Below, in pieces: positions 11,209 through 15,160 of a DNA stretch of 64,000 bases. Numbering within the stretch: position 1 is the stretch's first letter; each line of letters opens with the position of its first letter. The stretch covers positions 434,001-498,000 of the forward strand of contig NZ_LIVZ01000004.1 in NCBI RefSeq assembly GCF_001905845.1, in the 5' to 3' direction. Below the pieces are notes generated by a model. It saw only the letters and a program-made list of their open reading frames with translations. It was not told where the DNA came from and made no database searches. The stretch is from Streptomyces sp. TSRI0107. GTDB taxonomy: Bacteria; Actinomycetota; Actinomycetes; Streptomycetales; Streptomycetaceae. The translations under genes were made by a program, and so were the position numbers.

Positions 11209-11746
11209 TGCTCTGGGTTCCTTCTTCGGTTTCGGTGCCCGCGGCCGGGCCGCTGTCAGGCGCTGTGGTCAGGCGCATCACGAGGGCGTCCACGTTGCCG
11301 GGCTGGTAGTAGCCGCGCCGGAAGCCGATGGGTTCGAAGCCGAAGCGCTCGTACAGCTTCTGCGCGCGGACGTTGTCCACCCGGCACTCCAGCATCACCT
11401 CGGCGCACTCGAACGCGGTGGCGGCCCGCAGCAGTTCGGTGAGCAGCCGGGCGCCGAGGCCGGTGCCCCACTGGTCGCGGGCGACGGCGATGGTCTGGAT
11501 GTCGCCGATGTCACCGGCGGAGGCGAGTCCGGCGTAGCCGACGATCCGGCTGCCGCCCTGCTCCGTCTCCTCCTCGGCGACGACGTACCGCCGGGTGGCC
11601 CCGGGCCCGCGGGCATGGGCCAGTTCGGACCAGAACATGCCCCGCGACCAGGCGTCCTCGGGGAAGAGGTCCCGCTCCAGTTCGAGTACGGGGTCGATGT
11701 CCCACCAGCGCATCTCGCGCAGTCGGGGGGTCTCGGTGCCGGTCAC
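11201..11746 (-). CDS. rimI: Ribosomal-protein-alanine N-acetyltransferase RimI
   Basis: 181 residues from a GTG overlapping the tsaB stop by 4 bases. It is a GNAT fold protein: [25 protein letters not shown] at the start, the acetyl-CoA binding motif (Q/R-x-x-G-x-G/A) as [13 protein letters not shown], and [25 protein letters not shown] in motif B. RimI acetylates the N-terminal Ala of ribosomal protein S18 and perhaps other proteins. It lies between tsaB and tsaD, the usual bacterial arrangement. The acidic C-terminal tail of about 20 residues is not conserved. Confidence 0.95.
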
Positions 11747-12396
11747 TTGGGGGTGACCACCTTGTAGTTCTTGGGGACCTGGGCGTCGGGCCGGCGCAGG
11801 TACAGCGGCCGGGGTGCGGGCAGCTCCTCCCCCGCGGCCAGCCTGCGGGCGGCCAGGGAGGCGAGCGCCGCGGCGGAGACGTGCTCGGGCTCGTGCGCGC
11901 TGGGGAAGGTGTCCGGGTACAGCAGCGCCCCGGCGCCGACCGCGGGCAGGCCCTGGACCTGCTCGGCGATGTCGGCGGGGCGGTCCACCGCCGGGTCGGT
12001 GACCCGGGTGTGGGAGTCCGCGTACCGCGCCCAGTAGACCTCCTTGCGCCGGGCGTCGGTCGCCACGACGAAGGCGCCTTCGAGGTCGGTGGCGTAGGCG
12101 AGGCCGTCGAGCGTGCACAGGCCGTGCACGGGGACGCCGAGGGCGAGCCCGAAGGTGTCGGCGGTCATCAGGCCGACGCGCAGCCCGGTGTACGGACCGG
12201 GCCCGGTCCCTACGACGATGCCGGTCACGGCGTCGAGCGCGAGCCCCGCCTGGCCGAGCACACGGTCGACGGCGGGCAGCAGCAACTCACCGTGCCGTCG
12301 CGCGTCCACCTGGCTGGACGAGGCGATGACATCCGTTCCGTCGTGCAGGGCGACGGTGACGGCGGGCGTGGCGGTATCCAGAGCGAGCAAGAGCAC
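11743..12396 (-). CDS. tsaB: t6A biosynthesis scaffold protein TsaB
   Basis: 217 residues from a GTG at 12396. TsaB is an inactive paralogue of TsaD that forms the platform for TsaD and TsaE. The family start LLLALDTATPAVTVAL, the HGELLLPAVDRVL segment and GTGPGPYTGLRVGLMTA are all present. First gene of the coupled set tsaB-rimI-tsaD-small protein. The promoter should lie in 12397-12517, shared with the divergent gene at 12518. Confidence 0.95.
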   Translation of the reverse strand: MLLLALDTATPAVTVALHDGTDVIASSSQVDARRHGELLLPAVDRVLGQAGLALDAVTGIVVGTGPGPYTGLRVGLMTADTFGLALGVPVHGLCTLDGLAYATDLEGAFVVATDARRKEVYWARYADSHTRVTDPAVDRPADIAEQVQGLPAVGAGALLYPDTFPSAHEPEHVSAAALASLAARRLAAGEELPAPRPLYLRRPDAQVPKNYKVVTPK

Positions 12397-12517
12397 GCCA
12401 ACAGCCTACGGCTCCCGGCGGCCCGTGTCGGAAGTCCCGGTTCCCTCACTCACCGACTGCTACCGTCACGTCCCGTTACGGTACGTCTGTGGACATACGA
12501 GGCGGAGGTGGACGCCC

Positions 12518-13072
12518 GTGGCCAGCAGCAGCGCCGGACTCGTGACCGGGCTGACGGCGGCGGCGATCGGGACGGTCGGGTTCCTCGCCTTCCAGGCGGC
12601 GGCGAACGTGCCTCCGGTGCTGGGGAAGCACGCGCGCGGCACCCTCCCGGCGGCGGCGGCTTCGAAGGCGCCCCGCGACGAGCTGAACCCGGCCGCGCTG
12701 CCCGCGGGTTCCGGCCGGGGCAAGCGCGTCGTGTACTCGCTGGACGACGACCGGGTGTGGCTGGTCGGCGCGGACAACAAGGTCCGGCGCACCTTCGAGG
12801 TCACCCCGAGCGAGCTGGACCCGGTGCCCGGCGTGTACGAGGTGACGTCCCGCTCGAACCGCACCACCGGCTCCGACGGCACCCCCATCGAGCACGTCGT
12901 CCGGTTCGCCTCGGTCGACCACGTGACCATCGGCTTCAGCGCGGCGGTGGACGGCTCCACCCCGCCCCCGGAGCCGGGCACGCTGACCGGCGGCATCCGG
13001 CAGTCCCGTGCCGACGGGAACGCGATGTGGAACTTCGCGACGATCGGCCAGCAGGTCGTCGTCATCCGGTAG
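12518..13072 (+). CDS. Membrane-anchored L,D-transpeptidase-like protein lacking catalytic residues
   Basis: 184 residues from a GTG at 12518, with GGAGG about 9 bases upstream. A short N-terminus leads to a membrane segment (about residues 6-27), then an Ala/Pro-rich stretch. From about residue 68 the sequence (RVVYSLDDDRVWLVGADNKVR, FEVTPSELDPVPGVYEV) resembles the YkuD L,D-transpeptidase fold of actinomycetes. In active members a GFHS motif gives the His and an S-x-GC-V-R motif gives the nucleophile Cys. Here the equivalent places read GFSA and TGGIRQ, so both are missing. It is probably exported and non-enzymatic, perhaps a peptidoglycan-binding or regulatory protein. The family assignment is from pattern recognition. 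Confidence 0.65.
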   Translation: MASSSAGLVTGLTAAAIGTVGFLAFQAAANVPPVLGKHARGTLPAAAASKAPRDELNPAALPAGSGRGKRVVYSLDDDRVWLVGADNKVRRTFEVTPSELDPVPGVYEVTSRSNRTTGSDGTPIEHVVRFASVDHVTIGFSAAVDGSTPPPEPGTLTGGIRQSRADGNAMWNFATIGQQVVVIR

Positions 13073-13077
13073 GGCGA

Positions 13078-13260
13078 CTACGCGGCCTTCCGCTGCCGGG
13101 TCAGCCGTTCGGGTTCCGGCAGGCGGGGCTCGCGGGGCGGGGTCGAGACGGCGGTGGCCGCGGCGCAGGACGCCAGCAGGTCACGCATGGACACCGGCGG
13201 GACCGGGGACAGGGGGGCAGCCGCGCGCGGCGGTGTCTCGTCTCGTTCCGTGGCCGACAT
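13078..13260 (-). CDS. Small Pro/Ala-rich protein of unknown function behind a perfect palindrome
   Basis: 60 residues starting with ATG at 13260, with AGGAGG 6 bases upstream. The core SMRDLLASCAAATAVSTPP sits between a disordered N-terminus and a basic end (RLTRQRKAA). No membrane segment or signal. The strong ribosome binding site and the palindrome at 13288-13311, about 28 bases upstream, argue that it is a real and regulated gene. Similar short proteins seem to recur in Streptomyces at this locus, but I know of no function. Confidence 0.65.
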   Translation of the reverse strand: MSATERDETPPRAAAPLSPVPPVSMRDLLASCAAATAVSTPPREPRLPEPERLTRQRKAA

Positions 13261-13428: not shown

Positions 13429-13953
13429 TCAGGCGGACAGCGCGCTCAGGTCCGCCGCCGTCCAGCGCTCCCCGATCCCGGTGAACGTCACGTGCCGCAC
13501 CTCGTCGGTGGTGTCGCCCACGGCCCGGTGGATGACGACGTGCAGCCGGTCGTCGGTCAGCTCCTCGACCTTGCCCTCGCCCCACTCCACGACGATCACC
13601 GAATCGGGCAGCGAGACGTCGAGGTCCAGGTCCTCCATCTCGTCCAGCCCGCCGGACAGCCGGTAGGCGTCCACGTGGACGAGCGGCGGGCCGTCGCCGA
13701 GCGAGGGGTGCACCCGGGCGATCACGAACGTCGGGGAGGTGACCGCGCCGCGCACGCCCATCCCCTCGCCCAGTCCGCGGGTCAGCGTGGTCTTGCCGGC
13801 GCCCAGCTCACCGGTGAGCATCACCAGGTCGCCGGCGCGCAGCAGCTTGGCGAGCCGGCGGCCCAGCTCGCGCATCTGGTCGGGGGAGGTGACGGTCAGC
13901 TCGGTCTCAGCCGAGCGCTCAGCCGGGTTGTGCGGTGCCGCTGGTGCTTCCAT
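13429..13953 (-). CDS. tsaE: t6A biosynthesis ATPase TsaE
   Basis: 174 residues from the ATG at 13953; an upstream GTG-type extension is less likely because the family begins near TVTSPDQMRELGRRLA. The P-loop GELGAGKTTLTRGLGEG, switch region GAVTSPTFVIARVH, HVDAYRLSG and VVEWGEG are the TsaE signatures. It binds and hydrolyses ATP to regenerate the TsaBD complex. The start lies inside the last codons of the hydrolase gene (35-base overlap), so it is transcribed with it. Confidence 0.95.
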   Translation of the reverse strand: MEAPAAPHNPAERSAETELTVTSPDQMRELGRRLAKLLRAGDLVMLTGELGAGKTTLTRGLGEGMGVRGAVTSPTFVIARVHPSLGDGPPLVHVDAYRLSGGLDEMEDLDLDVSLPDSVIVVEWGEGKVEELTDDRLHVVIHRAVGDTTDEVRHVTFTGIGERWTAADLSALSA

Positions 13954-15160
13954 AGCCACCCACGGTAGCCCCTGCGGGCACGGCACCCGCGCGGGTGAGC
14001 AGGTCGGCGAGCCGGTCGGTGACCACTTCCGGGTGTTCCAGCATCACCAGATGCCCGGCGTCCGGCACCAGCACCAGCTCGGCGTCCGGCAGCAGATCGG
14101 CGATGACCTCACTGTGCTCGCTGGGCGTCACCAGGTCCCGGACCCCGGCCAGCACCAGCATCGGCAGCTCCGCGAAATGGGCCAGCGCCTGCGTCTTGTC
14201 GTGCTCGGTGAACGCCGGATAGAACTCGGCGACGACGTCGATCGGCGTGCTCTCGATCATCCGCTCGGCGAACCGCTCGACGGCCGGGTCGATGTCCCGG
14301 GACGCGAACGAGTACCGCTTGATGACCCCGGCGAACAGATCGGCGGTCGCCCGCCGCCCCTTCTCCACCAGCTCGGCCCGCTGCCCGAGCGCCTTCAGCA
14401 CCCCGGGGAGCACCCGCCGCACCGCGTTCACCCCGGCCACCGGCAGCCCGAAGTTGACCTCGCCGAGCCCTCCCGACGACGTCCCCACGAGCGCCACCGC
14501 GACCACCCGCTCCCGGACCAGCTCCGGGTACTGGTCGGCCAGCGCCATCACGGTCATCCCGCCCATGGAGTGCCCGACCAGCACGATCGGCCCCTCGGGC
14601 ACGGCCGCGTCGATGACGGCCTTCAGGTCGCGGCCCAGCTGGTCGATGCTGACCGGCACCCCCTCCGTCAGCTGCGCCGCCCCGCGCCCGGACCGCCCGT
14701 GACTGCGCTGGTCCCAGTGCACGGTCCGTACGACGCCCCGCAGCGCGGCCCGCTGGAAGTGCCAGGAGTCCTGGGTCAGGCAGTAGCCGTGGCTGAAGAC
14801 GACGGTGACGGGAGCGGGCGCCTTGCGGCCGAAGAGCCGTCGCCGGCGCGGGCTGACGGCGGCACCCGTGTCGGGCTGGACGTCGTCGACCTCGTAGTAC
14901 AGCTCGGTGCCGTCGTCGGCGTACGCCTTGCCGGGGGTGCCGCGCAGCGCCCCGTACGGCCCGGTCGAGTCGAGGGCGAGCCGGGCCCTGCGGCGCATGC
15001 CGCGTCCGACCGTCATCCGCTCCACGGCGACGCCGGCGGCCGCGCCGGCGGCCAGTACGCCTATCGCGGCGCCCGCGATCCCGGTCGCCCGGCGCCAGCT
15101 CCCGGCCGCCCCCGCGGCGGAGACGACGTCCGCGACGGCCTCCGCGCTGCTCTCGCTCAC
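13919..15160 (-). CDS. Membrane-associated alpha/beta hydrolase
   Basis: 413 residues from a GTG at 15160 with GAGGAG upstream. A membrane segment at about residues 25-46 precedes the alpha/beta hydrolase fold. Visible parts are the oxyanion region VVFSHGYCLTQDSWHFQ, HWDQRSHGRSG, the nucleophile elbow VLVGHSMGGMT, the acid Asp in AGVRDLVTP and the His in VPDAGHLVML. All catalytic residues are present, so it should be an active esterase, lipase or epoxide hydrolase-like enzyme, but the substrate is unknown. It lies between alr and tsaE in what looks like one leftward operon. Confidence 0.85.
   Translation of the reverse strand: MSESSAEAVADVVSAAGAAGSWRRATGIAGAAIGVLAAGAAAGVAVERMTVGRGMRRRARLALDSTGPYGALRGTPGKAYADDGTELYYEVDDVQPDTGAAVSPRRRRLFGRKAPAPVTVVFSHGYCLTQDSWHFQRAALRGVVRTVHWDQRSHGRSGRGAAQLTEGVPVSIDQLGRDLKAVIDAAVPEGPIVLVGHSMGGMTVMALADQYPELVRERVVAVALVGTSSGGLGEVNFGLPVAGVNAVRRVLPGVLKALGQRAELVEKGRRATADLFAGVIKRYSFASRDIDPAVERFAERMIESTPIDVVAEFYPAFTEHDKTQALAHFAELPMLVLAGVRDLVTPSEHSEVIADLLPDAELVLVPDAGHLVMLEHPEVVTDRLADLLTRAGAVPAGATVGGYGSTSGTAQPG

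Follow-up and report, generated by a model that had tools for sequence, protein, structure and literature searches.

A YkuD-fold protein without the catalytic residues of L,D-transpeptidases, retained beside tsaB and tsaE in streptomycetes and their sister families

Background

LdtMt1 and LdtMt2 of mycobacteria, whose structures have been solved, are active L,D-transpeptidases of the YkuD fold. The 3-3 cross-links made by such enzymes are described as allowing bypass of beta-lactams (PMC6767563), and an Arg residue common among them is reported to face the substrate groove (PMC10653827). In other proteins with this fold, the function has changed: Csd6 and Pgp2 are L,D-carboxypeptidases, and DpaA of E. 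coli is reported to hydrolyse the link between Lpp and peptidoglycan, with Ala145 in the place of the groove Arg (PMC10653827). In other enzyme families, regulation of an active enzyme by a catalytically dead paralogue has been described, for example, by the trypanosome prozyme (PMC5201418). No naturally dead L,D-transpeptidase or otherwise inactive YkuD protein was found in the literature searched, which was represented mostly by listings.

The gene considered here, called gene X, lies in a window of 64,000 nucleotides, the whole stretch of DNA that was analysed, from Streptomyces sp. TSRI0107 (NCBI RefSeq assembly GCF_001905845.1, contig NZ_LIVZ01000004.1, positions 434,001 to 498,000). An earlier note, made from the sequence of this DNA, had read the product as an exported relative of the YkuD L,D-transpeptidases, encoded next to the t6A genes, in which both catalytic residues are replaced and the rest of the domain is kept. 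No description of X as a pseudo-transpeptidase was found in the parts of the literature searched. A term search of the main text of a 2025 review of L,D-transpeptidases (PMC12729407) gave no mention of Streptomyces, and the same kind of search in two papers on the S. coelicolor envelope (PMC6767563, PMC6593405), which name other L,D-transpeptidases, gave none of SCO474x or SCO475x.

Gene X and its predicted protein

Gene X (12518..13072, + strand) specifies 184 amino acids from a GTG start codon, the stop codon being included in these coordinates, and a ribosome-binding site, GGAGG (12504..12508, +), can be read off the DNA 9 bases 5' of the GTG. The protein has three parts: an N-terminal hydrophobic segment, residues 1-29 (12518..12604, +), which is a putative signal peptide or membrane anchor with an AxA-like end at residues 27-29; a variable linker rich in Ala, Pro, and Ser, residues 30-59 (12605..12694, +), in which pLDDT is low and change is fast; and a YkuD-fold domain that lacks the catalytic residues, residues 60-184 (12695..13069, +), delimited by pLDDT and by matches in the PDB. 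The possibility that X is a sequencing error or a pseudogene was considered and ruled out, since the frame is open in all of the matches listed in the genus and family searches.

X matches no Pfam and no NCBIfam family at E values up to 10, and consequently, it would be overlooked in annotation that relies on those models. Its relationship to the YkuD proteins is seen instead through its intact homologues. BLASTP aligns X with one of these, L127, over 139 residues at 43% identity (E 3e-24); L127 scores 59.2 bits against PF03734, which is over the cut-off, and all 10 of the 10 intact homologues given to Pfam exceed the YkuD cut-off. Among the other members without catalytic residues, 5 of the 10 scanned have sub-threshold matches to PF03734, the best at 20.3 bits against a cut-off of 23.4. 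A sequence search of the PDB with X gave no useful match (best E 0.7).

An AlphaFold2 model of X was built from an alignment that held the window protein and 77 of 80 loci from a pattern scan, with 3 loci omitted. The block means of pLDDT are 84-97 from residue 61 onward, and pLDDT is <50 for residues 1-46. In a Foldseek search, the top PDB match to the model is the L,D-transpeptidase 5bmq (E 1.6e-6); 63 chains match at E 0.001, and the best 50 of these are nearly all named L,D-transpeptidase or YkuD. Comparison by VIA gives a Z of 13.7 with 4lpq (rmsd 2.3, 111 residues aligned) and of 13.6 with 5bmq (rmsd 2.7, 121 residues aligned). Structure prediction and comparison with the L,D-transpeptidases of the PDB have thus borne out the YkuD fold that had been proposed for this protein.

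X is probably exported by way of its N-terminal segment. Of 167 sequences, 166 have Ala27 and 110 have Ala at residue 29, as in an AxA-like site with Ala at -3; a helix at residues 20-29 falls in the low-confidence region of the model. Because there are few positive charges before the hydrophobic segment (mean K/R of 0.5 before it and 1.5 after), the topology of X is not certain.

Loss of the catalytic residues

Sequences were placed in the dead or the intact group by taxonomic origin, not by motif. The dead group consists of 223 distinct sequences from the order: the family of the source genome, Streptomycetaceae, contributes 209, and its sister families f47 and f48 contribute 14. The intact group is made up of 56 homologues that lie outside this order. 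The residue counts omit an ordinary L,D-transpeptidase (L285), 35 identical proteins of 314, and homologue hits under 40 bits. All 56 of the matches outside the family were read as sequence, as was part of the matches from the genus, family, and profile searches. It should be noted that 71 of the 223 order sequences came from the pattern scan (80 loci kept, 79 from Streptomyces and 1 from Kitasatospora aureofaciens), and since the pattern required Phe-Ser at the His position, these 71 rows are biased towards Ser at this single position.

All 56 homologues outside the order have both catalytic residues, His and Cys, whereas none of the 223 sequences inside it has either. X reads ...TIGFSAAVDG...TLTGGIRQSRADGNAMWNFATIGQQVVVIR, and at the corresponding stretch, L127 reads IGFHDIP...SHGCIRQKRADAIALWDFAPLGTTVVV. 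Relative to the intact homologues, the His has become Ser at residue 141 (12938..12940, +), and the Cys has become Gly at residue 159 (12992..12994, +). The Arg of the SxGCxR motif, Arg161 of X (12998..13000, +), is kept in 222 of the 223 dead sequences and in 54 of the 56 intact ones. When the pattern-selected rows are left out, the counts are 0 of 152 for His, 0 of 152 for Cys, and 151 of 152 for Arg. The His position is occupied by Ser in 199 of the 209 family sequences (71 of them selected for Ser) and by D, E, or A in all 14 of the sister-family sequences, and 221 of the 223 have G or A at the Cys position. No conserved replacement nucleophile is present at either position in the 223 sequences, and Cys is nearly absent after residue 60 (2 of 193 distinct sequences). 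Both changes that the earlier note had seen, GFSA in place of the His motif and an altered Cys motif, are therefore confirmed against intact L127, and the alignment of orthologues, a check that it had proposed, shows the losses to be conserved in the sequences read from the order. Two outcomes had been named in advance as speaking against its reading, a model unlike YkuD and orthologues that mostly keep the His and Cys; neither occurred.

The further claim that the rest of the domain is kept proved right only in part. The end of the domain and the Arg are retained, but the loop from the His to the Cys position is 17 residues long versus a median of 25 in the intact homologues (range 23-34), and the Pfam YkuD model no longer matches. 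A loop of 17 residues is found in 170 of the 209 family members (median 17, range 8-49), and the loop of the sister families is 16-21 residues (median 19). In genera g118 and g115 of the same family (L082, L083, L089, L090, L091-L093), a longer insert rich in Thr, Pro, and Ser replaces the shortened loop.

Other positions are strongly conserved. A hairpin turn, G118-S-D120-G121 in X (12869..12880, +), is conserved in the dead clade only, as far as the alignment on which this depends can be followed; in the G-x-D-G turn at 118-121, the counts are G 211, D 218, and G 212 of 223, and the intact set is without a dominant residue. V72, W81, and V182 are invariant in all 223 sequences, and P62, G68, R70, Y73, and R161 are each present in 222. 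Arg161 may correspond to the groove-exposed Arg described in PMC10653827. Retention of this Arg would fit the binding of a stem peptide by X, and the shortened loop suggests that such binding has changed.

Distribution and age of the loss

When the class was searched with X, 82 of the 296 genomes gave a match; of these 82, 54 belong to other families and contain 56 matches. X was found in 149 of the 150 genus genomes (the remaining one is 82% complete), in every one of 150 family genomes, which represent 17 genera, and in 14 of 15 genomes of the sister families f47 and f48, where the exception is 81% complete. A search of a plasmid collection gave no match.

When the 214 extractions from the family (duplicates included) are sorted by neighbourhood, 185 have tsaB or tsaE in the stretch fetched, 11 have a CofH-like gene, and 18 have neither. 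In the sister families, tsaB accompanies 14 of 14 loci, and tsaE is also found in 13. No tsa gene was found at any of 55 intact loci within the stretch fetched, about 3 kb on each side or less. Since tsa genes lie beside most of the dead loci and were found beside none of the intact ones, the dead protein and its position among the tsa genes have been linked since the base of the order.

Two matches to X are found in at least 59 of the 150 genomes of the genus; in G088, the second was obtained with a profile that included intact rows. With this profile, the source genome has only two X-type copies. The second of these, L002 (1495-2079, -), is a dead paralogue that is 50% identical to X and adjoins a gene for a CofH-like FO synthase (F420 biosynthesis), a place that is also occupied in L146. 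An assignment of this neighbour as MqnC was wrong, because NCBIfam identifies it as CofH over the cut-off. Likewise, a His in L002 (FSHAVDG) was considered as the catalytic residue and rejected: it lies one residue past the catalytic position, where most sisters have Asn. In genome G533, two dead copies, L096 and L102, are in tandem with no tsa gene detected nearby, and a tsa-locus copy, L078, is present besides.

In a quick tree of 128 rows and 140 columns, with SH-aLRT support, one branch splits all of the intact from all of the dead proteins (support 96). Within the dead proteins, f47 splits first (the rest together at 91), followed by f48 and then by Streptomycetaceae (81). The single f47 sequence L283, in which much of the strand and helix sequence is intact-like although Glu replaces the His and the Cys is missing, looks intermediate between intact and dead; its placement is less sure because it has the longest end branch. 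The 21 sampled copies outside the tsa locus form one clade (94). L092 and L093, for which no tsa gene was detected, cluster with a tsa-locus sequence and lie outside this duplicate clade. The homology and fold of X, the loss, its restriction to a single clade, and the retention of the gene are thus established. Given that the loss is conserved across the order and the gene is kept, a single ancient loss followed by retention, and hence a true pseudoenzyme, is indicated.

Constraint, neighbouring genes, and the upstream region

X is kept by selection, and the constraint on it is real but moderate. Ratios of the NG86 type are inflated in high-GC genomes, and consequently, tsaB and tsaE were used as a yardstick. 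Over 3000 pairs, X has a mean pN/pS of 0.69, compared with 0.34 in tsaB and 0.35 in tsaE; this is roughly double the rate of change of tsaB, hence the moderate grade of constraint. The shifted frames of X, an imperfect neutral control within a coding gene, give 0.99 and 1.46 (up to 1500 pairs). The dN/dS ratio is highest in the linker, residues 31-60 (0.92), and is 0.56 in the domain.

The divergent neighbour of X is tsaB (11743..12396, -; NCBIfam TIGR03725 over the cut-off), and because of this divergence, X is not part of the tsaB operon. On the other side lies tsaE (13429..13986, -; NCBIfam TIGR00150 over the cut-off). The gap between X and tsaE holds a small convergent ORF of 60 amino acids (13078..13260, -), which was detected in many related loci, though not in every one; it begins MSATERDETPPRAAAP..., and its stop codon is 5 bases from that of X. 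The genes rimI and tsaD come after tsaB, and TsaB, TsaD, TsaE, and RimI are all confirmed by NCBIfam. The t6A neighbourhood stressed in the earlier note therefore stands insofar as X adjoins tsaB and tsaE, but the link is weak, as duplicates are found elsewhere.

In S. coelicolor, TsaE is given as SCO4747, TsaB as SCO4750, and TsaD as SCO4752 (PMC4932002). By position, the orthologue of X would be SCO4748 or SCO4749, and is likely the latter, since X adjoins tsaB. In RNA-seq work, SCO4749 is reported to give one of two convergent transcripts that overlap and to be affected significantly when RNase III is lost (PMC3765725); such a pair fits the arrangement in which X faces the 60-amino acid ORF.

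Upstream of X, CTGCTACCGTC (12457..12467, +) is a conserved element like an extended -10 (TGnTAnnnT). Of 164 distinct upstream regions, 129 contain its CTGCTA core, whereas base shuffles, a lenient control in that they ignore relatedness, give an expectation of 1.0. A scan for the sigma-70 consensus around X gave no promoter, and a terminator scan gave no terminator. A second conserved element, AGCCTACGGC (12403-12412), is located in the divergent intergenic region, directly upstream of tsaB. Its opposite strand holds TAGGCT, which may be a -10 for tsaB that lies so near the start that the transcript could be leaderless.

Possible roles of X

Taken together, these results have led to the following model. 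In the ancestor of the order (Streptomycetaceae, f47, and f48), a YkuD L,D-transpeptidase would have settled between tsaE and tsaB. Both catalytic residues, His and Cys, and a portion of the substrate loop would have been lost from this ancestral X, and the dead protein would then have been retained in nearly all of the sampled descendants. Once exported, X would serve to bind or to regulate without catalysis, either in the wall or on the outside of the membrane, and its remodelled groove, with Arg161 kept and the new G-x-D-G turn, might hold the stem peptide of peptidoglycan or a partner enzyme. That X is a pseudoenzyme of the YkuD family is held with high confidence. The combination of a kept fold, lost catalysis, and near-universal retention makes a non-enzymatic job at the cell wall probable; a binding or regulatory module of the envelope has an even or slightly better chance of being correct. 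The peptidoglycan sensor, scaffold, or inhibitor suggested in the earlier note is a hypothetical role, as is any binding of X to peptidoglycan. The model as a whole, from ancestral enzyme to envelope pseudoenzyme, is favoured with reasonable but far from complete confidence. A point against the part assigned to the groove is that shortening of the loop may have destroyed the groove for the stem peptide, and Arg161 may be structural. A more ambitious form, in which X is a core and order-defining component of the streptomycete envelope, fixed before diversification and later duplicated, that reads stem peptides without catalysis or regulates 3-3 cross-linking, is put forward tentatively and has somewhat less than an even chance.

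A sharper form of the same model, and compatible with it, is that X is an antagonist, which would lower 3-3 cross-linking by occupying stem peptides or by pairing with active L,D-transpeptidases. In the source genome, eight matches to Pfam YkuD exceed the cut-off, and SHGC or TAGC motifs occur in seven of them, so that active partners or targets for X probably exist; furthermore, the groove Arg is present in 222 of 223 sequences, and dead regulators of active paralogues have been described elsewhere (PMC5201418). However, contact with any L,D-transpeptidase is purely hypothetical, and the loop deletion alters the groove, so that antagonism is considered unlikely. It is very unlikely that X is still an enzyme whose catalytic residues have migrated or are different. 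Such an enzyme might use the Ser at the His position (199 of 209 in the family, 71 pre-selected) or D120 (218 of 223), but the sister families have D, E, or A at that position in 14 of 14 cases, a Cys after residue 60 occurs in 2 of 193, and neither catalytic position has a conserved substitute nucleophile.

The order tsaE-X-tsaB, which is kept across the order, could instead mean that X works with the t6A genes in tRNA modification or its regulation, its YkuD ancestry being incidental. This is very unlikely indeed: X lies on the strand opposite to the tsa genes and has a conserved upstream element of its own, its N-terminus is hydrophobic, and the duplicate clade is outside the tsa locus. The opposite strand and the duplicates elsewhere make the t6A neighbourhood look like inherited gene order. 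Finally, faster change than in the neighbouring genes and a near-neutral linker might be expected of a decaying relic kept by chance, but the frame is open in every match listed, the gene is nearly universal, domain residues are invariant, and the upstream element is conserved. These observations already contradict decay, which is given next to no weight.

The envelope pseudoenzyme thus remains the preferred reading. X is in this reading a lineage-wide pseudoenzyme within the known L,D-transpeptidase family. That a dead L,D-transpeptidase is nearly universal in the order to which the antibiotic-producing streptomycetes belong suggests that control of the wall has a non-catalytic layer which has been overlooked.

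Comparison with known systems

The closest relatives of X are the intact YkuD proteins of the subfamily represented by L127 and L132, which come from other members of the class. X shares with them the fold, the length of the domain, its start (LPxGSGxGxRVV) and its end (ALWxFAPxGTxVVV), the GF that precedes the His position, and the Arg that follows the Cys position. In contrast to the intact proteins (PF03734), the X clade lacks the His and Cys in 223 of 223 sequences, usually has a shorter loop between these positions, and, in the case of the window protein, is not matched by the Pfam model. LdtMt1 and LdtMt2 are similar in structure (VIA Z of about 11 to 13 over 105-107 residues) but only 12-16% identical in sequence. 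Csd6 and Pgp2 also share the YkuD fold with X (VIA Z of 9.8), and together with DpaA, they join X among YkuD-fold proteins whose function has changed. The catalytic Cys by which the YkuD L,D-carboxypeptidases and amidases (Csd6, DpaA) are defined is absent from X, however, and relative to DpaA the situation is reversed: X is missing the nucleophile and retains the Arg. Although X belongs to a different enzyme family from the prozyme-type pseudoenzymes, and regulation by X is only hypothetical, it resembles them in being a catalytically dead paralogue that has been retained alongside active relatives.
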